From IMG/VR virus record IMGVR_UViG_3300020469_000169, positions 1-30,131 of that record: a stretch of DNA of 30,131 nt; one strand, written 5' to 3'. Source of the stretch: a virus. Position numbers and translations under genes: made by a program. Below the pieces are notes generated by a model. The model searched no databases. It was not told where the DNA came from and worked only from the letters and a program-made list of their open reading frames with translations. This document shows positions 64-14,029 of the stretch, piece by piece; position 1 is the stretch's first letter, and every line of letters begins with the position of its first letter.

Positions 64-301
64 TTAAATAAGTATTTGCCTTAAATAAGTATTTGCGTTG
101 AATAAGTATTTGCCTTGAATAAGAATTTGCCTTAAATAAGTATTTGCGTTGAATAAGTATTTGCCTTGAATAAGAATTTGCCTTAAATAAGTATTTGCCT
201 TAAATAAGTATTTGCCTTAAATAAGTATTTGCCTTGAATAAGAATTTGCCTTAAATAAGTATTTGCCTTAAATAAGTATTTGCCTTAAATAAGTATTTGC
301 A
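64..301. repeat. 14 tandem copies of a 17-bp repeat (iteron-like array)
   Basis: Fourteen head-to-tail copies of the 17-bp unit TTAAATAAGTATTTGCC with no spacer. Variants occur only at fixed positions: A or G at position 3, T or A at position 10, and C, G or A at position 17. Copies 2-4 (81-131) and 5-7 (132-182) are the same three-variant series, so a 51-bp block was duplicated. Copies 8-10 and 12-14 are near-uniform. Each standard unit contains the dyad AAATA-AG-TATTT (5-bp arms, 2-bp gap), the size of a dimeric HTH binding site. The array ends 8 bp before the -35 box of the rightward promoter. It could be a replication iteron array, a regulator-binding or titration array, or simple slippage expansion. 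The repeat itself is certain; the function is inferred. Confidence 0.95.
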
Positions 302-309
302 TTTAGGTA

Positions 310-338
310 TTGACATATAATGTATTTGCATATATATT
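310..338 (+). promoter_or_regulatory. Rightward sigma70-like promoter with inverted repeat
   Basis: TTGACA (310-315) is followed after 17 bp by TATATT (333-338), a 5/6 match to the -10 consensus. A perfect 10-bp inverted repeat spans the promoter: TATAATGTAT at 316-325 and ATACATTATA at 344-353, so a bound dimer would cover the -10 and start site. AAGGAGG follows at 359-365, just before the first gene. The promoter lies directly after the 17-bp repeat array, which suggests regulation through it. Confidence 0.65.
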
Positions 339-371: not shown

Positions 372-692
372 GTGTGTAAAGAAAAAGTATATGAGCATGG
401 ATTTGATGACAAATACATGTCAAATCATAAAGGACAATGGGATGCATGGTTCATAAGTGATTTGCTCTGTTTGTTTAATGGTCATGTTGTATGCACTTCT
501 AAAGACTATGTAGAAGTTGCTACAGAAGATTATAAAAAAAGGATTTGCATTTACGCAGATAAAGGTAAATTTATAACTTATATAAACTTAGATGATCTTA
601 ATGCATATAGTTATACACAAAAAGATTATCTAGCCTTTCAAGGGTTTTGTAATAAATATAATTTTAAATATGAGGAGTGGTGCGATGAGTAA
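372..692 (+). CDS. Small phage protein of unknown function (106 aa)
   Basis: I do not recognise this protein. It is 106 aa, rich in Tyr, Asp and Lys, with five Cys and no membrane segment or signal peptide. The start is GTG at 372, six bases after a strong GGAGG Shine-Dalgarno. An ATG at 370 is in another frame and gives only a 28-aa peptide. It is the first gene of the only rightward transcript, behind the promoter at 310-338 and the repeat array. That position fits an early accessory or regulatory protein. Its coding strand also carries the ATTTGC motif (around 542). The reading frame is well supported by its ribosome site and its coupling to the next gene; the function is open. Confidence 0.75.
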   Translation: MCKEKVYEHGFDDKYMSNHKGQWDAWFISDLLCLFNGHVVCTSKDYVEVATEDYKKRICIYADKGKFITYINLDDLNAYSYTQKDYLAFQGFCNKYNFKYEEWCDE

Positions 693-885
693 ATATTATT
701 GGGAAAACGATACATGGGTTGATATAAAGCATGAGAATGGTGAGGTGTTTGATGCTAACTTATGGACGTGTGATAAATCAGGTAGGCAATACATTTCTTT
801 TTATGAAACTTTTAATGATGAAGATAGGTTTCGTAGAACTGATGGTATATCGCCTGTAGCAACTTTTAGAGTAATTGAGGAGTAA
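685..885 (+). CDS. Small phage protein of unknown function (66 aa)
   Basis: Unrecognised 66-aa acidic protein rich in aromatic residues (YYWENDTW near the N-terminus, FYETF in the middle), with no membrane segment. I chose ATG 685 because GAGGAG lies about nine bases upstream. The in-frame ATG at 670 precedes that site and would put the ribosome site inside the gene. The start overlaps the end of the preceding gene by eight bases (ATGAGTAA), so the two are probably translationally coupled. Its transcript ends at the hairpin at 908-936, where it meets the leftward operon. Confidence 0.72.
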   Translation: MSKYYWENDTWVDIKHENGEVFDANLWTCDKSGRQYISFYETFNDEDRFRRTDGISPVATFRVIEE

Positions 886-907
886 TAAAAAATTAATTTG
901 CAGTAAA

Positions 908-936
908 GGTAAATTTGCCCTAGTGGTAAATTTGCC
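908..936. terminator. Bidirectional hairpin terminator made of two motif copies
   Basis: Two direct copies of GGTAAATTTGCC (908-919 and 925-936) are separated by CTAGT. The 12-mer is nearly its own reverse complement, so the two copies can pair over all 12 positions (two G-U pairs) with a 5-nt loop. TTTAT follows on the plus strand and TTTACTG on the minus strand. It sits between the end of the rightward genes (885) and the end of the leftward operon (938), where a shared terminator is expected. The stem carries the ATTTGCC motif that is scattered over this end of the genome. Confidence 0.6.
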
Positions 937-937
937 T

Positions 938-1594
938 TTATCGTCTTCTTGTTCTTTTTAAAAATTGTTTATGTATTTCTTTTGGTAAAGTATTTTTAAT
1001 TACTTTTTCACCGACTTTAAAAAAATCAATAAATTTTCTATGCTTTACATAAGGTGTATATGCTACAAGAAGTTTTAAACCTTCACGTCCTTTCCTTCCT
1101 TGCCTTTCCCATACACCATAAGTCTTTGAGCCAGACCCTCTAGGTATGCCTTGAAATCTTGCACCTTTTCTTTGTGCGTCTTCTGTTATATCAATTTTTG
1201 CTAATAGACCACCTTTTTTAGATAACTTAACAATGTTGCCATATTGACCAGACTTAGCCTTACCATCTCTTGTGGGTGACGGATAGGCGGATCTTCTTGC
1301 CTGTTCACTTTCACCACTATAAATGTAATGCAGATATTCAGCCGCCCAATCTTTTACTCTAACTACCATAGCCATAGCATTGGGTTTCGCAAATTGTGAA
1401 ATGACAACAGACTTAACTGTTTGTGGTCTTGGTCTGTCTAATTTATCGTGTAGATGTGATCTTTCAGCATTAACAACTCTTTCGCCTGTATGATTCATAG
1501 CTTCAGATAATATCTTATTGAATTTCTTTTTGCCTAAGTTTTTATCTAATTGTCTTCGAATTTGTTTATGATTTGTTTTAAGCGTAATTCTCAT
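938..1594 (-). CDS. Prophage minor tail protein Z-like (tail completion) protein
   Basis: 218-aa strongly basic protein. The N-terminal part (residues about 1-60, LNKTG-like motif in SEAMNHTGERVV) and the overall pattern resemble the GPZ/HK97-gp10-like minor tail proteins that help complete the tail in siphoviruses. It ends in a run of Arg and Lys. ATG 1594 directly follows the stop codon of the small HTH gene upstream (TAA-ATG), so it depends on translational coupling. It is the last gene of the early/replication operon, far from the tail cluster at 14-22 kb, which is odd for a structural protein. It may have another role, such as nucleic-acid binding. The gene is certain; the family call is moderate. 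Confidence 0.6.
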   Translation of the reverse strand: MRITLKTNHKQIRRQLDKNLGKKKFNKILSEAMNHTGERVVNAERSHLHDKLDRPRPQTVKSVVISQFAKPNAMAMVVRVKDWAAEYLHYIYSGESEQARRSAYPSPTRDGKAKSGQYGNIVKLSKKGGLLAKIDITEDAQRKGARFQGIPRGSGSKTYGVWERQGRKGREGLKLLVAYTPYVKHRKFIDFFKVGEKVIKNTLPKEIHKQFLKRTRRR

Positions 1595-1753
1595 TTATAA
1601 ATTTGCCCAATATGATTTGCCTTCAAACTTTAGACCAAACTCTTTTGCTTTTTTTAATATAGTAAATTTGCTTTTACCTGTAGATAAAGCAACATCATTT
1701 ACTGATTTGCCTTTGTCAATATATGCTTTAAGTATTTGCCTTTCAAGTTTCAT
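1595..1753 (-). CDS. Small helix-turn-helix protein (52 aa)
   Basis: A 52-aa basic protein. Residues about 5-41 read as a helix-turn-helix: a helix (RQILKAYIDKG), then VNDVALSTG, then recognition-helix-like SKFTILKKAKEFGL. The C-terminus is GKSYWANL. ATG 1753 overlaps the TGA of the DUF3310 gene (ATGA) and its stop touches the next ATG, so it is tightly coupled on both sides; I see no separate Shine-Dalgarno. The coding strand contains GGCAAA three times, each giving Gly-Lys, i.e. the scattered plus-strand TTTGCC motif. It is a candidate DNA-binding partner of the repeats. That link is inference. Confidence 0.6.
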   Translation of the reverse strand: MKLERQILKAYIDKGKSVNDVALSTGKSKFTILKKAKEFGLKFEGKSYWANL

Positions 1754-1968
1754 AGATTTTTATAATAACTTATTAACTCATCAAGATAAAATTTGCCTTT
1801 CTCTAAATCTTGTATGTTTTGATCTTTGTATTTATGTCTATGTAAATACTTTATTACATTGCCTTCAAGATACGAAGGGAAATTTGCACCTAACTGTTGC
1901 CTTATGTAATCCAAACATTCAACTTTGCCTTTATTGTAATGTGGCGGTTTATTTACCATGTCTGCCAT
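1750..1968 (-). CDS. DUF3310 family protein
   Basis: 72 aa. The sequence VNKPPHYNKGKVECLDYI followed by SYLEGNVIKYLHRHKYK and DLEKGKFYLDELI matches the DUF3310 family of small phage proteins, sometimes annotated as nucleotide kinase or SaV-like. The family is common in tailed-phage early regions; its biochemical role is unclear. The Shine-Dalgarno AGGAGG lies in TAGGAGGTTAAAAAATG before ATG 1968, and the gene overlaps the end of the upstream gene by 20 bases. Its stop overlaps the start of the HTH gene. Several Gly-Lys and Ala-Asn pairs are encoded by copies of the scattered motif. Confidence 0.85.
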   Translation of the reverse strand: MADMVNKPPHYNKGKVECLDYIRQQLGANFPSYLEGNVIKYLHRHKYKDQNIQDLEKGKFYLDELISYYKNL

Positions 1969-2149
1969 TTTTTAACCTCCTAGTTAATTCACGTTTACAT
2001 TTGATTCTTAATTTTGCATTTGCCCTTTCACTTTTCACTATCTCCACTAACTCTTTGTAAGATGTGTTCTTTATATAATAGTGTTCTGTTGTGTATTTGC
2101 CTGTCTTTCTGTCGTAACTTTTTACGCTTGGTTTTAGTTTTGTTGGCAT
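1949..2149 (-). CDS. Small basic phage protein (66 aa)
   Basis: 66-aa strongly basic protein. The N-terminus (KLKPSVKSYDRKTGKYTTEH) looks like a small conserved early protein I have seen in phage genomes near DUF3310 genes; I know of no assigned function. The C-terminal half is Lys/Arg-rich (KCKRELTRRLKNGRHGK), consistent with nucleic-acid binding. ATG 2149 lies inside the C-terminal part of the preceding gene, with a 122-base out-of-frame overlap. No strong Shine-Dalgarno is visible, so translation probably depends on coupling. Confidence 0.65.
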   Translation of the reverse strand: MPTKLKPSVKSYDRKTGKYTTEHYYIKNTSYKELVEIVKSERANAKLRIKCKRELTRRLKNGRHGK

Positions 2150-2225
2150 CTTTAAATATTTTATCCCAATTTTCGTCTATTTTATTTTTGTTTTCAGGTC
2201 TACGCTTACTACCTTTGCCTGTCAT
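2028..2225 (-). CDS. Small conserved phage protein (GKGSKRRPE type)
   Basis: 65 aa from ATG 2225, chosen because AAAGG lies seven bases upstream and because MTGKGSKRRPE followed by NWDKIFK is the usual start of a widespread but uncharacterised small phage protein. Most relatives I remember end soon after the WDxIF motif. Here the frame continues for about 38 strongly basic residues over the start of the next gene. The tail may be a real extension or may have arisen by loss of a stop codon. It overlaps the gene upstream by 17 bases. Confidence 0.65.
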   Translation of the reverse strand: MTGKGSKRRPENKNKIDENWDKIFKDANKTKTKRKKLRQKDRQIHNRTLLYKEHILQRVSGDSEK

Positions 2226-2709
2226 AATTAACCTTTTCAAAATTTGCATAAGGCAGAGAGCTTGTAAGAGTTTCTTTAATTTGGATTATGTCATCAGGTA
2301 TCATTCTAAACAATTCTTGCATACTAAAAAAGACAACATCTTTCTCTTTTTTATGTGCATTTATCATATTTGCCTTTTCATAATCATAGTCACACACTAA
2401 AGCATATTTGCCTTTGTCATAATCATAACACCTAATTTGCGGCTCAAGCTCATAATAGCCATTTGCCTTAATGCAATCTTCTAAGGAATCATAAGCACGA
2501 TATATCATATCTAACATTTGCATTTGCCTTTTTCTTTGATCTTCTACTAAAGATTTCTTAAATAACATTTTTGCCTTTTCAAATTTTATTTCCATATCTA
2601 CACCAACAATTTTATAGATACGTTTCATACAACCATATTTGCATATAAAATTTGCTTCAAACCTTCTAAGCTCTCTTAATTCTTTATTTAATTCTTTACA
2701 CAGTTTCAT
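2209..2709 (-). CDS. Hypothetical phage protein (166 aa)
   Basis: I do not recognise this protein. The N-terminal third is helical and basic (KELNKELRELRRF, then a CKYGC pair of cysteines), the middle is Met/Lys-rich, and the C-terminal third is mixed. ATG 2709 has no obvious ribosome site; in-frame ATG codons at residues 28 and 39 are alternative starts. Many residues come from the scattered plus-strand TTTGC motif, read here as GCAAA (KANG, KANMINA, EANF, DKGKY), so part of the sequence may reflect repeat spread rather than protein function. The intergenic palindrome region lies directly upstream. Confidence 0.6.
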   Translation of the reverse strand: MKLCKELNKELRELRRFEANFICKYGCMKRIYKIVGVDMEIKFEKAKMLFKKSLVEDQRKRQMQMLDMIYRAYDSLEDCIKANGYYELEPQIRCYDYDKGKYALVCDYDYEKANMINAHKKEKDVVFFSMQELFRMIPDDIIQIKETLTSSLPYANFEKVNYDRQR

Positions 2710-2834
2710 ACAAAATTTGACATAAAAGTGTGTGTAGTGTGTAGTCCTTACGGACTACTACACACTCACTACACTAATATAATGTGTGGTGCACACACAC
2801 TACACTTTCTACACACTTTTTACGCACACTTTTT
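2710..2834. other. Intergenic palindromic, TACAC/GTGTA-rich region (origin or terminator candidate)
   Basis: This 125-bp gap between the primase-helicase gene and the next gene is built of TACAC and GTGTA runs. It holds a perfect 7-bp stem GTAGTCC/GGACTAC (2741-2747, 2752-2758), which on the minus strand has a GTAA (GNRA-type) loop. A further GTGT/ACAC pairing follows after a one-base bulge. A second small palindrome is TGTGTG-GTGCA-CACACA around 2783-2799. On the minus strand the first hairpin is followed by ACTTTTATG, so it could weaken or end transcription after the primase gene. Repeats beside a helicase-primase would also suit an origin. A TTGACA at 2717-2722 on the plus strand has no good -10. 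Confidence 0.5.
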
Positions 2835-4805
2835 TTATCCATCATAAGGGTTAAAATTAATTAGTCTATAACCAAAAGAAAGATCAACACCCTCAACATC
2901 TTTAACGTGTTCTACAACACCATTTGCTCTAAGTCTATCAAGAGACCTATTGATCTTATCTCTACTGATCTCTTTACCTGAAACATTAAAATTTGCATGA
3001 TGTAAAAATGATCTTGCAGTAAACCATTTATCTCTTGGTTCTTCTTCATCTAAAGCCAATGAATACATTAAACTAGCTATCTTCTTATCTGTAGCTTGTA
3101 AAATAGCTTCATTAACATTTTCTTCATCTTCTTGCTCCTCGTCATCATCAACCTCTATCAATAAGCCAGAAGTCATCTCAAGTCCAGCACCAATAAGATT
3201 TTCTTCGTGAAACTTAAATCTTTTCTTTGTCATACCCATACCATCTTTATTCTTAGTCTGCTCAAAATTGACATACATAATGCCTTCATCATCCTTTCTT
3301 TTAACTTTAAACTCTCCATCTATACTTGCATCAAGCACAGAAGAACCTCTAGCTCTGTTGAGATTACCTCTACCTGTGTGATGTACTAGCAAAACAGCAC
3401 ATTGGTAATCATGTATTAGCTGATCTGCCGCTTTTACAAACTTATTTACTTCTTGAGCTGAGTTCTCATCGCCAGAAAATGATCTTTGAAACGTATCAAA
3501 TATAATCAAACCAATATCTCCAGACTGGTCTTTTATAAGATTTATCTCATCTTCAAGCTTTTTATACTCATCTTCTTCATTTATTCTTGCACCTCTGTTA
3601 GATAAAAACAGTTGTGCGTCTTGTAATTTAGTATTTGCCTTCTTTTCTTCAGGAGTGAAAAACAGCTTATGACCATAGCTACTTTGATGGAAAGCTAAAA
3701 GTCTTTTACGCATACCTGAAAGACCTTCTCCTGCTAAATAAATAACATTTGACCTATTTGCCTTACACCCATAAAACTCTGTTCCAGAAGCAACAGCACA
3801 CGCCATAGCTATAGCTATAAAGGATTTACCTGATTTTGGTTCACCAAATACAGTAATAAGTTTTTCTTGTTCAAAGCAACCTTCTATCAACCATTTAGGA
3901 TTTTCTACGTTTAATATTGCTTCTTTGACTGTTTGAAATCTTAATGAACCTCTTGGTATTTTTTGCTCTTGCTTATTGATAAAAAGCTCAAGTTCTTCAG
4001 GTGTCTTAAAATAATTGCTTTCAAGTGCATCGTAAAGATCATCCTTGTCAGCAAAATCTTTTGGCGGCTCAACTACCTTAACTTTACATTTTTGCCTTCT
4101 AAGATGATCTGATAGATCATTTGCACATTTCTTGCCAGCTTCATCATTGTCAGGAAAAATAATAACCTCTCTACCCTCTATTGGACTCCAGTCGGCTTTT
4201 TGCCATGCATTTACGCCACCATGCCAAGTCACAGAGTCGCCTTGCCAAATCTTCTCAGCAGCAACTGTAGCCTTCTCTCCCTCATTTATTAGTATAGGCT
4301 TGTCTGGGTATTGGTTTTGAAAATAAATTGGCAGTAAGCCGTCTGGTCGCTTCATACGCCAATTACCATCATCAAGCTTGGTAAATGGTGCGTATTTTTG
4401 CTTTATCCAATGCTCTTGTGGAAAACGCATAACTACAAAGTCTAGAGAATATCGCAATGATATTATGGCTTCACTTTGTAGTTTGTGCATTTCTGCGTTA
4501 GAAATTGACTTAGCACCACTTTTAGTAGGAGGTTTTATACATAAAGGGGGTGGTGCTAAGTCATAACCGCATAGGTTGAGTATATCGCTTACTTCCCTAT
4601 TTTCCCTCTTAATTAAATCTACTATACCACCACCATCGTCATTTTCAAAATCAAACCAAGTGGCACTAGCTATATTAACTACTAGCGAACCTTTGTTGCC
4701 GTAACGCCATTCGTCACCTTTTTTGACCTTTGGCTCGCCTAGTAGTTCTAAGACAACTTGTGGTGCGATTTGCACCCAATCAATATTAGAAGGGTAAGTC
4801 GTCAT
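2835..4805 (-). CDS. Primase-helicase (Toprim + RepA/DnaB-like ATPase)
   Basis: 656-aa fused replication protein. Residues about 40-85 look like the N-terminal domain of P4/T7-type primases (TWFDFENDDGGGIVDLI). A Toprim domain lies near 168-250 with Glu175 (INEGEKA) and Asp219/Asp221 (FPDNDEAG), the metal-binding residues for primer synthesis. A RecA-fold helicase follows, with Walker A GEPKSGKS (321-328), Walker B IIFDTF (Asp437) and a LLVHHTGRG motif, like RepA/AAA_25 helicases. An acidic stretch (DDDEEQEDEEN) precedes a C-terminal winged-helix-like domain. It probably unwinds and primes the phage genome on its own. ATG 4805 overlaps the acidic tail codons of the SSB-like gene by 20 bases, so both proteins are made from one message. 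No phage DNA polymerase is visible, so host polymerase is presumably used. Confidence 0.85.
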   Translation of the reverse strand: MTTYPSNIDWVQIAPQVVLELLGEPKVKKGDEWRYGNKGSLVVNIASATWFDFENDDGGGIVDLIKRENREVSDILNLCGYDLAPPPLCIKPPTKSGAKSISNAEMHKLQSEAIISLRYSLDFVVMRFPQEHWIKQKYAPFTKLDDGNWRMKRPDGLLPIYFQNQYPDKPILINEGEKATVAAEKIWQGDSVTWHGGVNAWQKADWSPIEGREVIIFPDNDEAGKKCANDLSDHLRRQKCKVKVVEPPKDFADKDDLYDALESNYFKTPEELELFINKQEQKIPRGSLRFQTVKEAILNVENPKWLIEGCFEQEKLITVFGEPKSGKSFIAIAMACAVASGTEFYGCKANRSNVIYLAGEGLSGMRKRLLAFHQSSYGHKLFFTPEEKKANTKLQDAQLFLSNRGARINEEDEYKKLEDEINLIKDQSGDIGLIIFDTFQRSFSGDENSAQEVNKFVKAADQLIHDYQCAVLLVHHTGRGNLNRARGSSVLDASIDGEFKVKRKDDEGIMYVNFEQTKNKDGMGMTKKRFKFHEENLIGAGLEMTSGLLIEVDDDEEQEDEENVNEAILQATDKKIASLMYSLALDEEEPRDKWFTARSFLHHANFNVSGKEISRDKINRSLDRLRANGVVEHVKDVEGVDLSFGYRLINFNPYDG

Positions 4806-5361
4806 CTGTTAGCCCATCTACTGTACCTTGTTGTGTTTGTTCACCAACATCAACATTTTCCGCCCATTCAGGTATTACAAACTCAGTTTTTCTTGGCTTA
4901 AAACCAACAAAATCAAAGTTTATCTCAGCAGTTTTACCTAAACCAACCTGTATTGATTTTGCATCAACATATTTAAAGGTTGGCAAGTTTGGCTCTTTGC
5001 CATCTTTTTCATGCCAAAAAGCAGCTAACATTTTATTAAACGCAGAAGTTTCACAATAGCTAAATCTTTGCCATAGTAAAGGTCTATCTGTGCCATCCGT
5101 ATAAAGCCATGTAGACATAGCTCTTTTATAGGTTTCATCAGGTCTAACCCCAACTACGCCAAAGTTATCATCCCACACAAAATCAAAGCCAGATGTAGGG
5201 TTATAAGCACCCCAACCAGACTGAAATGTTTTAGGATCAAGTTGCAGGTACTCGAATTTAACATTCTCATCACCTACATAGAATTTAAGCTCTCCAGCTC
5301 TAAATGAAAGAAATGATGTAGTAGAGTCACTACTACCCATCCCACCTAGTATATCAACCAT
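4786..5361 (-). CDS. SSB-like single-stranded DNA-binding protein
   Basis: 191 aa ending in DDDLPF, the acidic-Pro-Phe tip by which bacterial SSB recruits replication and repair partners, after a Gln/Gly/Thr linker (QTQQGTVDG). The body is beta-rich and aromatic (FEYLQLDPKTF, WGAYNPTSGFDFVWDDNFGVV), as expected for an OB-like fold, though it does not look like E. coli SSB itself. Operon position directly before the primase-helicase supports the call. AGGAGAG lies seven bases before ATG 5361. The codons of the tip overlap the primase start, coupling the two genes. Confidence 0.65.
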   Translation of the reverse strand: MVDILGGMGSSDSTTSFLSFRAGELKFYVGDENVKFEYLQLDPKTFQSGWGAYNPTSGFDFVWDDNFGVVGVRPDETYKRAMSTWLYTDGTDRPLLWQRFSYCETSAFNKMLAAFWHEKDGKEPNLPTFKYVDAKSIQVGLGKTAEINFDFVGFKPRKTEFVIPEWAENVDVGEQTQQGTVDGLTDDDLPF

Positions 5362-5377
5362 AATACTCTCCTATTGG

Positions 5378-5584
5378 TTAATGTATAGATAATTTACCTA
5401 TACTATCTAAATACTCAACTTCAAGTCTAAGATAGTTCCTTTCCTTGAAGTCACTAAAAGTCTCGTCATTAGCTATACCTAACAATGACAAGACCACATT
5501 GACCTGTTCAAATTGAACACGACAAAAATCGTTAAAATCATCTTCATAAATTATATTCACTAGCATATCGTAATACTTTTTCAC
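5378..5584 (-). CDS. Small acidic protein of unknown function (68 aa)
   Basis: Unrecognised 68-aa acidic, hydrophobic protein (NIIYEDDFNDF, FEQVNVVLSLLG), probably helical, without a signal peptide. The frame opens at GTG 5584 inside the end of the resolvase gene (41-base overlap). An in-frame ATG six codons later is an alternative start. No clear Shine-Dalgarno precedes either. It lies between resolvase and SSB genes, so a replication or recombination accessory role is likely but not shown. Confidence 0.5.
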   Translation of the reverse strand: MKKYYDMLVNIIYEDDFNDFCRVQFEQVNVVLSLLGIANDETFSDFKERNYLRLEVEYLDSIGKLSIH

Positions 5585-5966
5585 GATCTTTGCATAGGCT
5601 CTCTAAAGTGCTTAGATATACAGCTTGATTATTGCCTTTATCTCTGCCAGTTAATAAATAAATGGGTACAAGTGTTTGTATAGGTCGCCTATCATATTTA
5701 AAAATTAAGATAGGTATGTATCTATCTTTTGCTGCTATACATACTTGTGTCCACCATTCCTGTTTATATACAGACTTTTCTGTTCCAGCATATCTTTTAC
5801 ACTCTATAGCAAAGTTATCCCAGTAAATGTCTGCCTGTCCTTTATATTGTGTTTGATCTAAATTTCTTTTAACTCTATCTGCTGACCCTGTAGACTCTAA
5901 ATAATGATTTATTGCAGACACTATTTGCCTTTCAAAGTTATGACCCTTTGCTCTGCTATTCACCAT
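5544..5966 (-). CDS. Holliday junction resolvase-like PD-(D/E)XK nuclease
   Basis: 140 aa with the order typical of phage Hjc-type resolvases: N-terminal GHNFERQIVSAI with Glu12, then GQADIYW with Asp46, and IECKRYA with Glu55-x-Lys57 as the catalytic core. The length is normal for the family. It would cut branched recombination or replication intermediates before packaging. ATG 5966 overlaps the end of a 31-aa membrane microgene by 11 bases. With the YqaJ-like exonuclease and SSB-like protein it forms a small recombination set. Confidence 0.8.
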   Translation of the reverse strand: MVNSRAKGHNFERQIVSAINHYLESTGSADRVKRNLDQTQYKGQADIYWDNFAIECKRYAGTEKSVYKQEWWTQVCIAAKDRYIPILIFKYDRRPIQTLVPIYLLTGRDKGNNQAVYLSTLESLCKDREKVLRYASEYNL

Positions 5967-6051
5967 CTTTATAATCCAAATAAAAAATATAAGCTACACT
6001 TATAATCATGCAAATAGTCGTTGTTAAAAATATACAATTACTTGTTATCAT
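5956..6051 (-). CDS. Membrane microprotein (31 aa)
   Basis: A 31-aa peptide consisting of one hydrophobic segment (residues about 6-24, CIFLTTTICMIISVAYIFYL) and a charged C-terminus (DYKDGE). AAAGGA lies about seven bases before ATG 6051, and the stop overlaps the start of the resolvase gene. It is too short for ordinary gene callers. Inner-membrane toxins, lysis modulators and exclusion proteins have this size, but nothing specific can be said. The frame could be fortuitous. Confidence 0.4.
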   Translation of the reverse strand: MITSNCIFLTTTICMIISVAYIFYLDYKDGE

Positions 6052-6139
6052 CCATCATCCTTTCTTCTTGTTTTTTTAAAGATTTTTCTATGTATCTATC
6101 TATTTTATGTGCAATATAATCTATGAGCCTAGCCCACAT
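6038..6139 (-). CDS. Basic microprotein (33 aa)
   Basis: A 33-aa helical, charged peptide (LIDYIAHKIDRYIEKSLKKQEER) starting at ATG 6139, which overlaps the end of the preceding 46-aa gene by 11 bases. It overlaps the following membrane microgene by 14 bases. No strong ribosome site is present, so coupling is assumed. Support is the chain of overlapping starts and stops in a stretch otherwise lacking genes. Confidence 0.4.
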   Translation of the reverse strand: MWARLIDYIAHKIDRYIEKSLKKQEERMMDDNK

Positions 6140-6269
6140 ATTCTACCAAAGTCTTTTTACGCTTATCATCAAACTCTATAACTCTTTTACCTGAGTCGTA
6201 GCCTATCGTAGTACGCCCTTCTTTACCCTCAATAAATATAACTTTTTCTTCAGACACTATCCTTACCAT
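6129..6269 (-). CDS. Small protein of unknown function (46 aa)
   Basis: A 46-aa protein with a likely beta-hairpin (RIVSEEKVIFIEGKEG, RTTIGYDSGKRVIEF) and a basic C-terminus. ATG 6269 lies within the end of the RHH-like gene (20-base overlap, different frame). I do not recognise a family. Position directly after a small DNA-binding-like gene could suggest an antidote or modulator pair, but no toxin signature is visible. Confidence 0.45.
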   Translation of the reverse strand: MVRIVSEEKVIFIEGKEGRTTIGYDSGKRVIEFDDKRKKTLVEYVG

Positions 6270-6408
6270 GTGAAATTATGCCTAGCTTAATTAACATCTC
6301 TGTTGCTCTACCAATATCAGTTCTATTAGTAGCAGCAAAAATATTAATCTCAGTATGCATATCTTCTGATACCCACAATGCTTTTTTTGTTGCTTTTTTA
6401 TCATCCAT
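6250..6408 (-). CDS. Small ribbon-helix-helix-like protein (52 aa)
   Basis: A 52-aa protein with the pattern of an Arc/CopG-type ribbon-helix-helix: a short strand (KKALWVSEDMH), helix one (TEINIFAATN), turn (RTDIG), helix two (RATEMLIKLGI). GGAGAG lies eight bases before ATG 6408, so this is the best supported of the microgenes here. Such proteins usually repress their own or neighbouring promoters. It lies in the early operon, about 1.2 kb after the promoter at 7661-7688, and is a candidate to bind the inverted repeats at the phage promoters (inference). Confidence 0.6.
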   Translation of the reverse strand: MDDKKATKKALWVSEDMHTEINIFAATNRTDIGRATEMLIKLGIISHGKDSV

Positions 6409-6500
6409 TTTATTTACTCTCCGTTTAAAATATTATTATGTAATTGGTTTATAATCAAGTAAGGGCAAAAAGGTAATACTCTCCAAAACCAATACTCTCA

Positions 6501-7454
6501 TTACTTATTTGCCCTCTTAACTGTTATCGTTTTTCTTCTAATACTATAAGCATCACTAGCAGGTATAACTCTCTCTGGTTTAGCTTTATAGTTAATCATT
6601 CCCCAAGAAACGACATAATCCTCATTGACTCCTTTACTGGCATTACCCATATCGCCCATGATTTGTGATTGGTGGTAATCCACTTGTCCTTCTAAATCCC
6701 TAATCTTTTGCTTCAAGTCTAAATATTGATCAATATGAAAGTTATCTTTGATTTCTACTACAGATTCTTGGTCTGCTTCTTGATTCATAACATAAGCATC
6801 TCTACTCACTTGTGGCGTAAAATAATCTTTCTCTTTTATCCTACGATCAAAGTCTATAACTTTTTCTGCTAATTGTTCTTCAAACTCATAATCCCTTCTA
6901 TACACAAAAACTCGCAAGTCTGTTGATTCAAACAAAATTATAAGTACACCAAAATCACATTGAGTTGTCGACATAGCAGCTTTTAACTGCATTACGCCCA
7001 ACCAATTAGGCGGTGTATCTGTTGCTCTTATGGAGGTGCATTTAACTTCTATTGGACATTTGCCATTAACGACAATCTTAGTGCCATTTGGGATATAGAT
7101 ACCCAAGTCAGAATTATTTTTGATAACCAGCTTATTAGCTTCCGCCATACCATCTAATGAACCTTCTAATGGCAAAAGTGGATGTTCAACTTTTTCTGTG
7201 ATCTCTGCATCAAGATTTACTAAACCAAGCCTTCGACAACCTTCTGTCATAACTACATTCTCTAATACAGAGCCAGTAAGTTGTCGATTGGTTTGTGGAG
7301 TTCTTATATTCTCACCCTCACTTGCTCTAATACAGTTATGTAAAGCTTCTTGTTTAGTTTGAAAGTGACCCTCATCAAATATGCAAGCCACTAAAGAATG
7401 AGACACCCTATCATCCCTAGTTATTTTAGATATGACTTTTTCGTATGCACTCAT
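6501..7454 (-). CDS. YqaJ-like phage exonuclease (PD-(D/E)XK)
   Basis: 317 aa. The core is that of YqaJ/lambda-Exo-type recombination nucleases: QLTGSVLENVV with Glu65, LEGSLDGM with Asp101, and CPIEVKCTS with Glu136-x-Lys138. WLGVMQLKAAM downstream fits the usual Gln-containing helix. It probably resects double-stranded ends for single-strand annealing or strand exchange. No RecT/Erf-type annealing protein is recognisable in the window; the SSB-like protein or host RecA may serve. ATG 7454 overlaps the upstream stop (ATGA). The stop sits in GCAAATAAGTAATGAG, which resembles a join of two parts of the genome repeat. Confidence 0.8.
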   Translation of the reverse strand: MSAYEKVISKITRDDRVSHSLVACIFDEGHFQTKQEALHNCIRASEGENIRTPQTNRQLTGSVLENVVMTEGCRRLGLVNLDAEITEKVEHPLLPLEGSLDGMAEANKLVIKNNSDLGIYIPNGTKIVVNGKCPIEVKCTSIRATDTPPNWLGVMQLKAAMSTTQCDFGVLIILFESTDLRVFVYRRDYEFEEQLAEKVIDFDRRIKEKDYFTPQVSRDAYVMNQEADQESVVEIKDNFHIDQYLDLKQKIRDLEGQVDYHQSQIMGDMGNASKGVNEDYVVSWGMINYKAKPERVIPASDAYSIRRKTITVKRANK

Positions 7455-7630
7455 GTAATGCTGTGTAGTTTTACAGATCGAATATAGCTACGCTTACCTT
7501 TTGCCAGTTCACGCAACATTCTAATCTTAGCTTCATCATAGTCGCTGTATCTAGCAACCATTGTAAAGTCTGATCTTAGAGCATTTTTCTTAGGCTCTTG
7601 CATAATCCAATAGTTGAATTTAGTTTGCAT
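7451..7630 (-). CDS. First gene of the early operon, unknown (59 aa)
   Basis: 59-aa basic protein (FNYWIMQEPKKNALRS, then DYDEAKIRMLRELAKGKRS) of unknown function. I chose ATG 7630 because a perfect AAGGAGG lies five bases upstream; an upstream in-frame extension would place that site inside the gene. It is the first gene after the promoter at 7661-7688 and is coupled to the exonuclease gene by an ATGA overlap. A role in early takeover or as a nuclease modulator would fit but is not shown. Confidence 0.65.
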   Translation of the reverse strand: MQTKFNYWIMQEPKKNALRSDFTMVARYSDYDEAKIRMLRELAKGKRSYIRSVKLHSIT

Positions 7631-7650
7631 GTTTACCTCCTTACATCTAA

Positions 7651-7699
7651 ACATATTTACATTATGCATAGATATATAAATATGTCAATACTTATTTAA
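7651..7699 (-). promoter_or_regulatory. Early-operon promoter with repeat core and operator-like inverted repeat
   Basis: On the minus strand TTGACA (7688-7683) and CATAAT (7666-7661, 5/6 to consensus) are 16 bp apart. A perfect 9-bp inverted repeat, ACATATTTA/TAAATATGT (arms 7677-7685 and 7651-7659, 17-bp gap), covers the promoter from the -35 edge past the -10. The 13-mer TTAAATAAGTATT, identical to the first 13 bases of the 17-bp array unit, lies at 7699-7687 and runs into the -35 box. The stop codon of the upstream nuclease gene is within it. This would drive the replication operon. Confidence 0.7.
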
Positions 7700-8138
7700 A
7701 CAAAGGATTTAGGACTGGTATCTGATTTAGTTGATTTAGACATTCTTGAAAGGAGTCAAGCTCCATAGTGTCAGTTATATTATTATTTTGAAAGGTGTAG
7801 TAATTTTGTGTAGAAGTATTTGCTTTGAAAAAGATACGCTTATGTTGTTTACCAAAAAACACAAAAGCTAAAATATCTACATGATAGTTTTTGTAGACAC
7901 TAGACATACTTCTTGATGGCTCTGCGGCAAAAACATATTTGCCTTCCTTAGTTTCTCTTCTGCTTTTGACCTGAACTGTGTATTTTGCGTTTGATAGCTC
8001 ACACATAATATCTGCTTTGTGCTTGTCTTGTGTAGGATAAACAAAGTCGCAATACTGAATAAGAAATGCTTGCACTAACAATTCTCCTAACGCACCTAAT
8101 CTTGAATTATTTTGATGATCTTCGCTTGACTTTTTCAT
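7692..8138 (-). CDS. PD-(D/E)XK endonuclease-like protein (148 aa)
   Basis: 148 aa with a nuclease-like N-terminal half: GALGELLVQAFLI with Glu19, KADIM with Asp43, then YTVQVKS with Gln56-x-Lys58, i.e. a D-QxK variant of the PD-(D/E)XK core as in several restriction-like and DUF4365-like enzymes. The C-terminal half (VDILAFVFFGKQHKRIFF) matches the beta-strand pattern often following that core. It lies between lysozyme and the early promoter. Roles could be host DNA breakdown, junction cleavage or exclusion. GAGG precedes ATG 8138 closely. The stop codon lies inside the repeat core that overlaps the early promoter. Confidence 0.6.
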   Translation of the reverse strand: MKKSSEDHQNNSRLGALGELLVQAFLIQYCDFVYPTQDKHKADIMCELSNAKYTVQVKSRRETKEGKYVFAAEPSRSMSSVYKNYHVDILAFVFFGKQHKRIFFKANTSTQNYYTFQNNNITDTMELDSFQECLNQLNQIPVLNPLFK

Positions 8139-8160
8139 GCCTCAAGCTCATAGGTGGCAA

Positions 8161-8604
8161 TTAGACTTGATGCCACTCCTTGCCTTCAAACAGCAAAGCT
8201 TCGGCTTCTCTTCTTCTAACTAAGCCCTCTAAAACCTTACCATTTGCCTTATTCCATCTACGCATTTGATGTGGCACATCTTCCCAGTCTTGAGCATTTA
8301 CTCTTTTTAAAAGCGTTGACGAGTTTAGATTTGCACCGCCTAGATTGAATGTCCAAGATACGATTGAATCATATTGATTTTGTTCTAATAGCACATTGAC
8401 AGCTTTGGTGACTGCCTTCTCATAAACAGCTACATCTTTTAACAGCAGTTGTTCTGCTTCTTCTTGGGTTATCGTATCGCCTTCTTTTACGCCTTTGGTA
8501 GAACCATAGCCAATAGTCCAAACACCAGCAGCACATTTGTAAGCTTCAAGTTTACAACCCTCAAACAATTTTATAAGGGATAAACCTTCTGTAGAAATAA
8601 TGAT
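8161..8604 (-). CDS. GH24 phage lysozyme (endolysin), probable AUC start
   Basis: T4/P22-type muramidase of about 147 aa. The catalytic pattern Glu-x8-Cys-x5-Thr is visible (FEGCKLEAYKCAAGVWT), with Cys where T4 has Asp, as in some phage endolysins; WTIGYGST and WTFNLGG follow as usual. It cleaves peptidoglycan once the holin releases it. The start is unusual. GGAGAGTAAT directly precedes ATC at 8604, and GGAGAGTATT precedes the ATG of the SSB-like gene at the same distance. From there the protein begins IIISTEGLSLIKLFEG, like typical family N-termini. The alternatives are ATT codons just after it, or ATG 8661 with a 19-residue extension inside the holin gene and no good ribosome site. No SAR-type hydrophobic leader is present. 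Confidence 0.85.
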   Translation of the reverse strand: MIISTEGLSLIKLFEGCKLEAYKCAAGVWTIGYGSTKGVKEGDTITQEEAEQLLLKDVAVYEKAVTKAVNVLLEQNQYDSIVSWTFNLGGANLNSSTLLKRVNAQDWEDVPHQMRRWNKANGKVLEGLVRRREAEALLFEGKEWHQV

Positions 8605-8617
8605 ATTACTCTCCTTT
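8602..8617 (-). promoter_or_regulatory. Ribosome site deciding the non-AUG lysozyme start
   Basis: AAAGGAGAG (8617-8609) overlaps the last codons of the holin gene. ATC follows its GGAGAG at a spacing identical to the ATG of the SSB-like gene, where GGAGAGTATT precedes the start. No ATG, GTG or TTG lies at this position. A rare AUC or AUU start would lower endolysin output. Confidence 0.55.
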
Positions 8618-9085
8618 GTCGCTAGTATGCGAGGCACCAAAGTAAAAAGATATGATTGCACTAGCTAGTCCACCAAGATAGCCAAGCACTAAGTTTATCA
8701 AAGCTTCGCTATTTTGTTCTGGTGGTTGCAGCGTTACTAAAAATATATAACCTAGGAAACCGCCAATAGTGCATAAGCCAATAATTCTTGCAGTCCAATC
8801 CTTGCTGAACATACCTCTAGCGTGCTGTTTGTCTTGAGTTTCAAGTTTAAAGATATCAACATCTAACTCTTTCATTTGCGTCTCAAACTCTTGCTCTGCT
8901 TTTTTAAGCTCTAGCATTTGTTCTGGCGTTGCACTTTGCAAAGCTTGTTGGATAGATTTTTGATCGTTAGATACGCCAAGCACTTGTGCTATCTTACCCA
9001 TAGCCATACCGCCTAAAGGCGTGCCAAGTGCTGATCCGATTGTCGGTGCTACAGCTCCAACTATGTTTTTAAGTATTGCTTTCAT
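8606..9085 (-). CDS. Holin of the three-TM (GTA-type) family
   Basis: 159 aa. An N-terminal Gly/Ala-rich amphipathic or membrane segment (residues about 8-35, VGAVAPTIGSALGTPLGG) is followed by a charged helical linker (about 40-90). Two membrane segments follow (about 97-118 and 129-150), ending YFGASHTSDKGE, which is the layout of the 3TMs holin family seen next to endolysins and in gene transfer agents. It would form the inner-membrane lesion that starts lysis. Its last codons carry the ribosome site of the lysozyme gene, and its start overlaps the stop of the 71-aa membrane protein by four bases. Confidence 0.8.
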   Translation of the reverse strand: MKAILKNIVGAVAPTIGSALGTPLGGMAMGKIAQVLGVSNDQKSIQQALQSATPEQMLELKKAEQEFETQMKELDVDIFKLETQDKQHARGMFSKDWTARIIGLCTIGGFLGYIFLVTLQPPEQNSEALINLVLGYLGGLASAIISFYFGASHTSDKGE

Positions 9086-9297
9086 AACACCACCGCAGTT
9101 AAAACCGCTATTGATAAAGCACCAACAAAGCCAAAGACACCAAAGGTTGCCATTTTCATAGTGTTATTGATAGATGCTATCTCTTGTTTAATTTCTTTGA
9201 ATTCATTGAAAGCTGTTTTCCATCTTTCAGCATTTTCTTTTTTAGATACAGCTAAATCTTTGGCTACATCTTGAACTGTTAATCTTTTAGCTTTCAT
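9082..9297 (-). CDS. Small single-TM protein (possible holin partner)
   Basis: 71 aa. The N-terminal two thirds are charged and helical (VQDVAKDLAVSKKENAERW, FNEFKEIKQEIASINNTMK), followed by one C-terminal membrane helix (about 48-70, ATFGVFGFVGALSIAVLTAVVL). This is the layout of haemolysin XhlA-like phage proteins and some antiholins. It lies directly upstream of the holin, overlapping it by four bases, and its ATG overlaps the stop of the cyclase gene by 11 bases. A role in tuning holin action is plausible; the sequence alone does not prove it. Confidence 0.65.
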   Translation of the reverse strand: MKAKRLTVQDVAKDLAVSKKENAERWKTAFNEFKEIKQEIASINNTMKMATFGVFGFVGALSIAVLTAVVL

Positions 9298-11032
9298 AAG
9301 TATATATAGATAATTTTTGCTTTTTACCTTTTACTTTAATTGGTTCTAATGATTTTAACCTAAATTTTGACCTTTTTTTAGTATTTTGTCCAATAATTAT
9401 ATCAACACCAACTTCTTTAGTAGCACTTTCAAGCCTAGCTGCTGTATTAACAGCGTCACCAATAGCAGTATAATCAAAGCGTGTATCACTTCCCATATTA
9501 CCTATTATCGATTCTCCTGAGTTTATGCCTATACCTATCTCTATGCCTAGATCGGCTTGCACCATATCTTCCTGTATTTTCAATGCTGCTGCTATGGCTT
9601 TATTCTCATGTTCAGGCAAATCTATAGGTGAGTTAAATATAGCCATCATTGCATCACCAATATATTTATCAACCATGCCGCCAAACTCTTTGACTGCATT
9701 TGCTTGAATAGTAAGAGCTTTGTTCATAATCTTTGTGACTTCTTCAGGTTCAAGTCTTTCAGATAGAGAGGTAAAACCACGCACATCGGTAAATAAAAAA
9801 GTACAATACTTTCTCTCACCACCTAGTTTCAAAAGCTCAGGATTCTCTTGTAATTGTTTGACTTGTCTTGGATCAAGGTAATGTTCGAACTGTTTTTTAA
9901 TTTGCTGTCTTAGTTTGTATTGTTCTCTAAAGCGTAAGTAGAAAGCTATTGTGCTAGTTATAAATTGTGATATTAAAGTCCAAGAAACATCAACTAGTAA
10001 GCCTTTTTGGATCATCGCATATCCACCAGAAGCCACACAAAGCATTAGAAAAGTTCCTATACCTAAACCCCAAGTCACCCCAAAAGAAGTCAATACAAGC
10101 CATGAGAGAGCCACAAAAAACGCAAATATGGCTATTTCGAAGCCAAAACTCCAGTCTGGGACACTTGGAGAGTCAGGTATTAAAATTGATTCAGCTAAAG
10201 CAGTTTGTATCTTATGTGGTTCTAGTAAACCAACTGGAGTAGCTAACTGTGGCATGATACCACTAGCTGTAAAACCAACAAAGACATATTTGCCCTTAAC
10301 GTCCATTTCTTCAAGTGTTGTTTGTTTTGTGTCAACCCAACTTATCCATTTACGCCCAAGACTATCTGTTTTTACTGGTGCAATACCTTGAACTGTAATC
10401 TCTTCAATACCAAGATCATTGGTCTTAATAATATAAGTATTGCTACTTGCTAAGACTTTCATTACCTCAGTTCCATACGCAGAAACAAATCCATCAGGAG
10501 TTTGTAGCATTAGAGGTATTCTTCTTACAAGATTGTCTAGCTCAGTAGGTGCGATTGCTATACCTTGATTGGAGCAGTCTTTTAGTATATCTATATTTTG
10601 AACTACACCTGTTGATTGTATGCCTGCAATATTATTGTTGCCGAGTATGACAGTTCCAGAGGTTGTTGGATAATTTGCACTTGCATCCTCAAACATAGCA
10701 AGCACAGAACCACCATAACAAAGAGCTTCTGCAAATGCTTCATCACCACCTAACCTATCAGGTTGTGGGAAAGCTAACACCCAACCAACACCTAAAGCTC
10801 CCTTTTGTAAAAGCTCTATGTGTATTTCGGCAAGCCTTTGTCTTGGTAAAGGGTAGCCACCTTCTCTTGCTACATCCTCCTCTGTAATATTTAGGATTGT
10901 AAAGAACCCAGACTGATCATATTCTTTTACTAAAGCATCAAAAGTTCTAAGCTTTATTACTTCTACAAAATTTGCCTTAAATACTAGCGGTGCAAGTAGT
11001 ATTGGCAAAATTATAAATATAAGTTTTTTCAC
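9287..11032 (-). CDS. CHASE2-domain membrane adenylate cyclase (class III)
   Basis: 581 aa. An N-terminal hydrophobic anchor (about 1-18) leads into a periplasmic CHASE2 sensor domain (about 25-290; VFVGFTASG near 250 is typical). Three membrane helices follow (about 296-363), then a class III cyclase domain (about 405-580). All key residues are visible: metal-binding Asp416 (FTDVRGF) and Asp460 (KYIGDAM), adenine-selecting Lys456 and Asp520 (FDYTAIGDAVNTAARLE), and transition-state Asn529 and Arg533. It should therefore be an active adenylate, not guanylate, cyclase that makes cAMP in the host cytoplasm. GTG 11032 directly follows the FecR-protein stop. CHASE2 cyclases paired with FecR-domain proteins are known in bacteria; one in a phage late operon is surprising. 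It is also an intact, full-length gene. Confidence 0.92.
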   Translation of the reverse strand: MKKLIFIILPILLAPLVFKANFVEVIKLRTFDALVKEYDQSGFFTILNITEEDVAREGGYPLPRQRLAEIHIELLQKGALGVGWVLAFPQPDRLGGDEAFAEALCYGGSVLAMFEDASANYPTTSGTVILGNNNIAGIQSTGVVQNIDILKDCSNQGIAIAPTELDNLVRRIPLMLQTPDGFVSAYGTEVMKVLASSNTYIIKTNDLGIEEITVQGIAPVKTDSLGRKWISWVDTKQTTLEEMDVKGKYVFVGFTASGIMPQLATPVGLLEPHKIQTALAESILIPDSPSVPDWSFGFEIAIFAFFVALSWLVLTSFGVTWGLGIGTFLMLCVASGGYAMIQKGLLVDVSWTLISQFITSTIAFYLRFREQYKLRQQIKKQFEHYLDPRQVKQLQENPELLKLGGERKYCTFLFTDVRGFTSLSERLEPEEVTKIMNKALTIQANAVKEFGGMVDKYIGDAMMAIFNSPIDLPEHENKAIAAALKIQEDMVQADLGIEIGIGINSGESIIGNMGSDTRFDYTAIGDAVNTAARLESATKEVGVDIIIGQNTKKRSKFRLKSLEPIKVKGKKQKLSIYTYES

Positions 11033-12184
11033 TTAGTTCTCTTGTTTTATTCTTATAATACTATCACTACCACCATTAATCTTAATAGTTCTTGAAACAC
11101 CATCCTGAATAATAATTACTGTATAGCTATCATCTGAATTTATATCTACTCTTGCTGTATTGTTTACGCTTCGTAATATTGTTAGCTTCTCCCCTGTAAG
11201 GAAAGTTGTGATTTGAGTATCTAAGTCTTGACCAAAGGTTGTGCCTGATAAAGCAACAGAAGTAACGTCTGCTTGCAGTTGGTCTTGTTCTTCTTGTATC
11301 TCTAATTCATCTAAAATATCAAGTAAATCTTCTAAAAAATTTACGTCAAGATAATTTATATCTAGCTCAGTAAACTCTAACTCACTTTCAGCATCTAAGA
11401 AATCTTCATCAAGGTAGTCAACATCAAGATCATTGAAATCAAGAATACTATCTGATCTAACTATCACCTCTTCTTGCTCTACCACCTTCTCCTCTGGCGG
11501 TGAGACAATAAGCATATTGTCAATAAGATCAAGAGATAAATCTAAAATTACTGGTTTACTTGGCAAGTTCTCAAATACAGAAACAGTTGTAGCTTCAAAA
11601 GGTTTATTAAGTATGACACTTCCCATTGCTGTAATAACTTCTATTTCACCGCTTGAAAGACCATATTGATCTGGTAAAAGAATAATTAAGCTTTCTCCAA
11701 GCTCATTAACTGTAGCTGTAAAATCTGTGCCACGAATAGCTATATTTGCTGTTGGAGTTTTTAGAGATATGTTTTGTTTATTGAGTCTATCTATATTGCC
11801 AGAAATAAATCTGGTTGTGCCAAGAGCAAAGGTAAGAGCCATCTTTGACTTTGCAGGGTTTGGATCATAAATATATTCATTAATTAATAACTCACTATGT
11901 TCTGTTAGCTTTACAACAGACTCATCAAGAAAAGTAATAGCCATTCTGCCATTAGACGTTATGGCTTCATCGTTGCTTTGAATAGCAAAATCTACAAAAG
12001 CATCTAAGGGTTGATCCCTTACTATCTTTGCATTACCTCTTAGCTCAGAGACATCTCCAATATTAGCATACTGTGCTTGTGCCTTGATCGTCTTGGACGA
12101 TACAGATACTACTATTAGAAGTGTTAGTAATAAGTTTGAAATAATCCCTTGCAAGTGTAGACGATTGAGTAATATCAATATCAT
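11033..12184 (-). CDS. FecR-domain exported protein with acidic C-terminal repeats
   Basis: 383 aa from ATG 12184, chosen because GGGAG lies five bases upstream. A hydrophobic signal or anchor (about 12-30) is followed by a periplasmic FecR domain (about 42-160): DVSELRGNA, then TSNGRMAITFLDESVVKL, and SLKTPTANIAIRGTDFTATV. Next comes a very acidic region (about 240-315) with two near-copies of LDVDYLDEDFL / LDINYLDVNFL, then a beta-like C-terminus. FecR domains pass signals across the envelope; here the partner is probably the CHASE2 domain encoded next, with stop and start adjacent. The first 122 bases overlap the end of the curlin-like gene out of frame, so the ribosome site and signal peptide are written inside the last curlin repeat. 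Confidence 0.85.
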   Translation of the reverse strand: MILILLNRLHLQGIISNLLLTLLIVVSVSSKTIKAQAQYANIGDVSELRGNAKIVRDQPLDAFVDFAIQSNDEAITSNGRMAITFLDESVVKLTEHSELLINEYIYDPNPAKSKMALTFALGTTRFISGNIDRLNKQNISLKTPTANIAIRGTDFTATVNELGESLIILLPDQYGLSSGEIEVITAMGSVILNKPFEATTVSVFENLPSKPVILDLSLDLIDNMLIVSPPEEKVVEQEEVIVRSDSILDFNDLDVDYLDEDFLDAESELEFTELDINYLDVNFLEDLLDILDELEIQEEQDQLQADVTSVALSGTTFGQDLDTQITTFLTGEKLTILRSVNNTARVDINSDDSYTVIIIQDGVSRTIKINGGSDSIIRIKQEN

Positions 12185-12788
12185 TTGAACTCCCATCTAA
12201 ATCTAAATAAAAATAGCCAGAGTCAGCAGATGAAGTACCACCATACCCACTACCTGAAAAATCTATTTGGTTAGAATTACCATAAATATCAACATAAGAT
12301 GTTGCATTTGCATAATCAATCGCAAAAGTAAGTTTATTGCTATCGCCTAAAATAATCCAGTCAAGATCAAGATATGATGCGTCATCATCTTCAGCTATTG
12401 CTAAATCAAACTCATTACTTGAACCTGTAACATCAATATTCAAATCTACATAATCAGCACTAATTAAACCTGTGCTATTCATTAAAATATCAAATATGTT
12501 GCTATCTCCATTCCATTCAAAATATCCAGTAAAGTTATCACCATCAATAGCATCTGATCTAAATATGTTTGAAGTACCTATCTGATTTATGTCAAGTGTC
12601 ATTGACACCCCATCTAAATCTAAAGCAGTCATATTACCAGAGCTAGCATCTGTGCCGCCTATTAAGTTAGATGATCCAAGTTGTTCAAGATCAATACTCG
12701 CTGAATTACCAGACTGATCTACATATATCTCATTATCTGCTGCAACAGACAATGATAAAAATAAAATTATGTTAAATAATTTATTCAT
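12063..12788 (-). CDS. Curlin-like (CsgA/CsgB-type) repeat protein
   Basis: 241 aa from ATG 12788. Signal peptide about 1-16 (IILFLSLSVA, then ADNE). The mature part is a row of about eight repeats with the core Gly-x-Ser-Asn at residues 38, 71, 94, 122, 149, 170 and 199 (plus GNSA at 27), spaced 21-33. Between the cores are Asp/Leu/Ile-rich strands. The first three repeats keep the curlin Gln-x-Gly signature (DQSGNS, EQLGSSN, NQIGTSN); later ones lose the Gln. Two Cys lie at the extreme C-terminus. This is consistent with a secreted amyloid-forming beta-solenoid passing through CsgG. It follows the CsgG gene with an eight-base overlap. The homology to curlin is inferred from the repeat pattern and context, and the repeats are more irregular and more acidic than in E. 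coli CsgA. Confidence 0.75.
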   Translation of the reverse strand: MNKLFNIILFLSLSVAADNEIYVDQSGNSASIDLEQLGSSNLIGGTDASSGNMTALDLDGVSMTLDINQIGTSNIFRSDAIDGDNFTGYFEWNGDSNIFDILMNSTGLISADYVDLNIDVTGSSNEFDLAIAEDDDASYLDLDWIILGDSNKLTFAIDYANATSYVDIYGNSNQIDFSGSGYGGTSSADSGYFYLDLDGSSNDIDITQSSTLARDYFKLITNTSNSSICIVQDDQGTSTVC

Positions 12789-13593: not shown

Positions 13594-14029
13594 TAGTATT
13601 AAATATTGTGAGTTTTATCATGCCATCGACTATTTCATAAGATATTATATTGCCTTCAAGCTCAAAGCTTCCTTCTGTTGATTGATCTTCACCAAACATT
13701 GCTTCTACTATTTGCCTTGATATTTGTGCATAGATACGGCTTTCCAAATTGCGAATAAATCTTGCTAGTGTAGTATTTTCTGCATCTCTCTCTAATTGTT
13801 CTTGCAAAGCTTTTATTTCTTCTTTGATTGTCATTTTTCTCATGTGTTCTTGGTTTTCAATAGTGAGATAATGTGAGCTTGTGTTGACACCTGAGAATGA
13901 AGGTGACTTAAACTTGAAGGTTATTTGATCTGCTTGTAAGTTTATGCAAGCAATACCTAAAAATAATATAGTCGCCCATATCACAACTATTTTATAATGC
14001 AGTGGTAATTTAGTCTTTTCTTTGGTCAT
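13541..14029 (-). CDS. csgF: CsgF-type curli assembly factor
   Basis: 162 aa. The signal peptide (about 12-33, VVIWATILFLGIACINLQA) ends before DQITFKFKSPSFSG, which matches the start of mature CsgF (TFxFxNPxFGG) that plugs into the CsgG pore. The C-terminal part (ISYEIVDGMIKLTIFNTNDGTTTVIEL) matches the conserved beta region. A helical middle (about 65-115) is longer than I remember for E. coli CsgF. ATG 14029 has GGAAAGAG directly upstream and overlaps the preceding membrane-protein gene by 20 bases. CsgF normally anchors the nucleator at the secretion pore, so CsgF plus CsgG is a strong sign of a true secretion unit rather than a stray homologue. Confidence 0.88.
   Translation of the reverse strand: MTKEKTKLPLHYKIVVIWATILFLGIACINLQADQITFKFKSPSFSGVNTSSHYLTIENQEHMRKMTIKEEIKALQEQLERDAENTTLARFIRNLESRIYAQISRQIVEAMFGEDQSTEGSFELEGNIISYEIVDGMIKLTIFNTNDGTTTVIELPLGDFSF

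Follow-up and report, generated by a model that had tools for sequence, protein, structure and literature searches.

Gene layout and the repeat array

The window, by which we mean the whole stretch of DNA that was analysed, is a phage record from IMG/VR, linear and 30,131 bases long. Nearly all of its genes, called with a simple longest-ORF rule, run leftward, the exception being two short rightward genes (372-885) beside a repeat array. The gene order and the core genes (TerS, TerL, portal, capsid, and helicase) are those of the CRP-822-type phage family, and by terminase the closest isolates are the Roseobacter phages CRP-821 and CRP-406 (~50-52% identity). The TerL of the window is ~52% identical to those of the family isolates. 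According to the family description, almost all members are without integrase genes, and the predicted hosts are SAR86, SAR11, KI89A and others (PMC12629253). The features of the window are as follows.

20-63, no strand: AT-rich stretch on the outer side of the array, read from the sequence; similar A-rich flanks occur in relatives
64-300, plus strand: array of 14 direct 17-bp repeats (TTAAATAAGTATTTGCC), found with TRF
295-338, plus strand: last repeat, ATTTGCA(TTTA), adjoining the early promoter TTGACA (310), 17-bp spacer, TATATT (333), from the sequence and a promoter scan
372-885, plus strand: two rightward early genes (ORFs) downstream of the array promoter; the cassette varies between relatives
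903-941, no strand: convergent gap in which two motif copies (913, 930) form a terminator-like hairpin
938-1594, minus strand: minor tail protein gene (phrog_1924), with zero motif copies in the codon test
1595-1753, minus strand: 52-aa helix-turn-helix (HTH) protein, type A, the putative reader of the motif
1750-2709, minus strand: small leftward genes with motif copies at 1791, 2018, 2095, 2368, 2406, 2461, and 2522
1750-1968, minus strand: nucleotide-kinase-like gene
1949-2149, minus strand: gene for a 66-aa protein
2209-2709, minus strand: gene for a 166-aa protein (p166)
2835-4805, minus strand: primase-helicase (PHROGs), with motif copies at 3633 and 3756 (codon test)
4786-9085, minus strand: genes at the far end of the motif domain (RusA-like, RecE-like exonuclease, lysis genes), with copies at 5923, 6507, 7058, 7937, and 8242

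The array is closely tied to the early promoter. In more than 40 related loci the array end ATTTGCATTTA directly precedes the TTG of the -35 box. Past the spacer come a TATA-like -10, then a conserved leader that contains AAGGAG, and finally a variable early gene; in the window a further ATTTGCA lies within the promoter spacer (324-330). The number of repeats is variable, since a phage with near-identical flanks (L090) has 7 array copies instead of 14. Motif spacing is mostly 17 bp, with 14, 15, and 25 bp also present, and in some relatives the gap that follows the HTH gene and the convergent gap contain extra tandem runs as well. In one relative (G001; L222, L223) an ArdA-like antirestriction gene (phrog_2059), at 13066-13602 of the flipped map, is part of the early cassette that lies between array and TerS, and the cassette has the look of an exchangeable anti-defence locus.

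Directly after the primase-helicase gene the window has a GT/CA-rich repeated gap (2730-2834), and relatives have other repeat-rich sequence there (GGAAGTGTCGG, TGGTTTGGTTT), in motif-bearing and motif-free phages alike. This gap is a candidate for a common replication origin. In the lysis and tail region (9287-12196) a protein resembling CHASE2-type adenylate cyclases stands beside a FecR-like protein, assignments made by reading of the sequence, the PHROGs matches there being of unknown function.

Strand polarity and extent of the motif

The window contains 39 copies of ATTTGCC on the plus strand and one on the minus strand, and 11 of the exact copies belong to the array. Outside the array the count is 28, against 4.7-12.1 expected under Markov models of order 2-4, while the reverse complement occurs once, against 0.9-1.8 expected. 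The plus-strand polarity proposed in a preliminary description is thus borne out by a count on both strands. Its figure of about twenty ATTTGCC in 1595-2720 is too high for the 7-mer, of which there are 11 exact copies (and 14 of TTTGCC), and fits the 6-mer ATTTGC, with 18. It had also placed copies in the convergent gap, where two indeed lie inside the terminator-like hairpin, and in the rightward genes, which in the window have zero exact copies (only ATTTGCT at 460 and ATTTGCA at 543); the latter claim holds only once relatives are pooled.

Motif copies in the window's genes occupy all three codon frames, and their number was compared with a codon-shuffling null that preserves protein sequence and codon usage (3000 simulations). 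The small genes at 1595-2709 carry 11 ATTTGCC against 1.92 expected, a count reached in none of the 3000 simulations. The primase-helicase has 2 copies (0.33 expected), the genes at 4786-9085 have 5 (0.81 expected), and the late genes have 8 (3.7 expected).

The opposing early genes of the relatives, downstream of the array promoter, separate the DNA strand from the direction of transcription. On the array strand, which is their antisense strand, 129 unique ORFs carry 46 copies against 12.3 expected; on their sense strand there are 16 against 15.1. Averaging over 65 protein families leaves 15.3 copies on the array strand where 5.0 are expected, with a bootstrap interval of 4.2-17.8 for the excess and with the reservation that the loci are related, so that pooled counts overstate independence and family-averaged and tree-based tests correct for this only in part. 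Within the same 2 kb, GCAAAT on the array strand is enriched 3.9-fold in leftward and 5.5-fold in rightward genes, the other strand being at the null. Because the copies keep to the same strand in rightward genes too, the polarity belongs to the DNA strand, independently of gene direction as had been suggested. When nine genomes are pooled by distance, array-strand enrichment on the replication side is 2.6-5.5-fold within ~10 kb of the array, for leftward and rightward genes alike, and 1.2-1.6-fold beyond ~10 kb, whereas on the terminase side it is 0.4-0.9-fold; the non-array strand is near the null in nearly every distance bin. This pattern gives the signal one boundary, the array, and makes the density gradient away from it real and one-sided. 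By gene position, rather than by a mapped cos or pac site, the domain sits between the replication genes and TerS. The core GCAAAT (best AAGGCAAAT) is selected at the DNA level, on one strand, over ~10 kb from the array across the early and replication genes.

The encoded proteins are shaped by the word, as the preliminary description supposed, with Gly-Lys, Ala-Asn, and Arg-Gln at motif sites. Codons differ even where the peptide is identical: for the Gly-Lys-Ser of the helicase P-loop, 8 of 10 motif-bearing genomes use GGCAAATC and none of 8 motif-free ones do, and at other motif sites the amino acids themselves are altered to fit the word. A physical spread of copies from the array, which had also been suggested, is not evident from the sites themselves, which lie at differing codons in each lineage, within otherwise homologous codons. 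By this placement the codon-embedded sites look like the product of point-by-point selection; tandem expansion of the motif was observed in non-coding gaps alone.

Motif-bearing and motif-free relatives and the HTH protein

Relatives were gathered by terminase and primase-helicase scans, which yielded more than 130 loci. Motif-bearing phages have 1.3-5 GGCAAAT per kb in the helicase-to-array region and almost none on the other strand. The pattern of the window is seen in relatives down to ~55% helicase identity, with one genome (G014) at 39%. GGCAAAT is at background level in motif-free phages, even though their helicases (51-55%) or terminases (79%) are just as similar, and the isolates CRP-406 and CRP-821 differ from the window in being without motif enrichment; repeats are not mentioned in the available portion of the family description (PMC12629253). 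Under the codon null, early and replication genes are enriched in 9 of 9 motif-bearing and 0 of 8 motif-free genomes, and far late genes are close to codon-usage expectation. In the early and replication genes of motif-bearing phages GGCAAAT ranks first among all 7-mers scanned (82 against 12.2 expected), AGCAAAT and TGCAAAT show a milder excess, and GACAAAT and GTCAAAT are depleted; in motif-free phages GGCAAAT is found 4 times against 4.0 expected. Motif-free relatives are without the array, the promoter, and the opposing early cassette, and have TerS directly after the tail gene. Genes have nevertheless recently been exchanged between the two groups, as the RusA proteins of G004 (motif-bearing) and G010 (motif-free) are nearly identical.

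Newly listed viral loci in which three copies stand in register number 57, and genes of the window's phage family are present in 55 of them. One IMG/VR contig of 65,678 bases (G003; L226-L229) contains, one after the other, two phage genomes that are related but not identical, and each of the two has an HTH gene and an array. A 3.9-kb contig from a Winogradskyella MAG (L326; JABDKL010000126.1) carries a type A HTH, tail and kinase genes, and 19 motif copies; its presence in a flavobacterial MAG may be a host hint or a binning error. In a Pirellulaceae MAG (L345; JAGYIQ010000006.1), an unrelated genome, 8 kb contain 26 ATTTGCC against 2 on the other strand, probably an internal repeat.

The HTH gene and the array lie within ~3 kb of each other, and the gene itself holds four exact motif copies (1601, 1615, 1705, 1734) and one AGCAAAT variant. 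Type A of the protein, with the helix SK[SF]TIL, is present at every motif-rich locus where an HTH was detected, and type B (PST[IV]R) at every motif-poor one. Across the 11 genes tested, the motif trait changes once on the HTH tree and 2-5 times on the trees of the ten others, with robust discordance for RusA, p166, and helicase among them. That one change amounts to a single evolutionary event, and the link between HTH and motif is therefore correlative. Within type A, covariation is uninformative, since the motif core and the recognition-helix residues are both invariant. The protein (52-56 aa) is modelled as one three-helix domain (pLDDT 80.5). Its structure matches are Fis- and resolvase-like DNA-binding domains, none with E < 0.001, such weak matches being expected of only 52 residues; database profiles gave weak HTH family matches only, and the search found no isolate phage with a close HTH. 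For type B, a scan of five motif-free phages found no word of comparable strength. AGCAGA, which in the motif-free G005, G008, G010, G012, and G013 is at ~2.3 times codon expectation near the helicase and ~1.5 times elsewhere, is possibly a weak word linked to this type.

Possible functions and comparison with known systems

We tentatively favour, at less than even confidence, a strand-polar multi-site DNA-binding system in which the type A HTH protein is the reader of the motif and the early region lies under a directional barrier or silencing domain. The protein would bind the asymmetric word as a small unit, as its correlation with the motif suggests, and the array would concentrate it at the early promoter. 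The same-facing sites would then form a directional nucleoprotein barrier or silencing domain, which may shut the early promoter and obstruct polymerase that crosses the early and replication region in one of the two directions, while the late genes across the array would stay free. Against a barrier of this kind, the polarity ignores transcription, so that the opposing early genes would meet any block to transcription as well.

The main rival to the HTH barrier, doubtful but to be taken seriously, is a Chi-like signal. A nuclease, either of the host (AddAB/RecBCD-type) or a phage end-processing enzyme, would enter where packaging begins, close to the terminase genes, and be switched or stopped by polar sites; such sites would in consequence accumulate, with one polarity, between the replication genes and the packaging site. 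A single polarity irrespective of genes fits this, as does a domain between the replication genes and TerS, with density dropping away from the array and no sites on the terminase side. The words in the window point 5' to 3' toward the TerS side, and this is the Chi orientation needed for an enzyme entering there. Lambdoid phages likewise concentrate Chi between the origin and cos (PMC3784561). The motif-free sisters argue the other way, since they show no enrichment despite the recent exchange of genes such as RusA, and a host signal should have served them too. A Chi-like role also leaves unexplained why the array abuts the -35 box at fixed spacing and why the HTH type co-segregates with the motif; up to ~2 kb between array and TerS is without sites, and the phage encodes a RecE-like exonuclease. 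No obvious Chi-like outlier for the word appeared in 322 gammaproteobacterial genomes, a set in which the host of the phage may not be represented. Of the other signal types named in the preliminary description, KOPS and DNA uptake gained no support.

An iteron-type origin is unlikely, although the AT-rich flank of the array makes it possible. On this view the HTH protein together with the early transcript would open the array and the adjoining run, the latter a candidate unwinding element should the array be an origin, and the replication machinery would be loaded, or loaded again, by the dispersed same-facing copies. Direct repeats beside an AT-rich run and a promoter, a primase-helicase nearby, and sites kept on one strand next to the array are all consistent with this. 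Motif-free relatives with related helicases, however, lack both array and sites, the spacings of 14, 15, 17, and 25 bp are out of helical phase, and the short repeat-rich gap after the helicase gene, shared by both groups, offers an alternative origin.

That the array and the sites are a packaging site read by the small terminase subunit is very improbable. The array lies near TerS in relatives, but the terminase side is without sites, and motif-free phages with TerL ~79% identical to that of the window package without an array. The trait needs two changes on each of the TerS and TerL trees (the TerS branches being weakly supported); with these and the helicase tree discordant with the trait, models of packaging only and of recognition by helicase or primase were rejected. 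Hardly any more credence is due to a signal at the RNA level, whether in mRNAs of the leftward genes or as an antisense sponge transcribed from the array: leftward genes do carry nearly all copies on their sense strand, but the excess in rightward genes is on the DNA array strand and their sense strand is at expectation, which largely refutes an RNA-level model, and an Rfam search gave no match. A by-product of codon or amino-acid usage, for which one might cite that all but two real genes of the window run leftward, that GGC, AAA, and AAT are common codons, and that far late genes are near expectation, is ruled out for the early region, where the shuffled nulls fail in the window and in all nine motif-bearing relatives, and merits next to no belief overall.

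Among known systems, the stoperators of cluster A mycobacteriophages (L5 gp71) resemble the window in having numerous asymmetric sites that face one way, both dispersed and as an operator at the early promoter, and a small HTH-containing reader, which here is putative (PMC9283540, PMC6550527). They differ in that their orientation follows transcription, whereas here the polarity follows the DNA strand and opposing genes carry the site on the antisense strand. Stoperators are also mainly intergenic and belong to temperate phages, whereas the sites described here are embedded in codons and no integrase was seen; the cluster A repressor combines its HTH with a second DNA-binding domain, in contrast to the single domain of 52-56 aa. 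Iteron origins of phages and plasmids likewise have direct repeats adjoining an AT-rich run and a promoter, but not ~10 kb of dispersed, codon-embedded, same-facing copies with spacing out of helical phase. Chi in lambdoid phages, concentrated between origin and packaging site (PMC3784561), resembles the present motif in being a short word with polarity that is under selection in the phage genome and clusters between the replication genes and terminase. The 17-bp tandem array abutting the early promoter, the one-sided domain, and the co-segregating phage HTH set the present case apart, and recognition by a host nuclease would for the present word be hypothetical.

In these phages the proteins of replication genes are bent to carry a one-way DNA word, which implies that a directional signal in the DNA is under strong selection in phages that are abundant in the sea. 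A possible, though rather uncertain, interpretation is a phage-encoded polar address system that is blind to gene direction. In it, a single-domain HTH protein of ~52 residues would read a 7-9-bp word of one polarity over 10 kb, nucleate on the tandem array at the early promoter, and make the passage of RNA polymerase, replication fork, or nuclease directional. With the word defined, a candidate for its reader, and motif-free sisters as natural controls, whether phages encode polar DNA address systems of their own can be put to a direct test. If true, such a system would be the phage's own counterpart of Chi, KOPS, or Ter sites.
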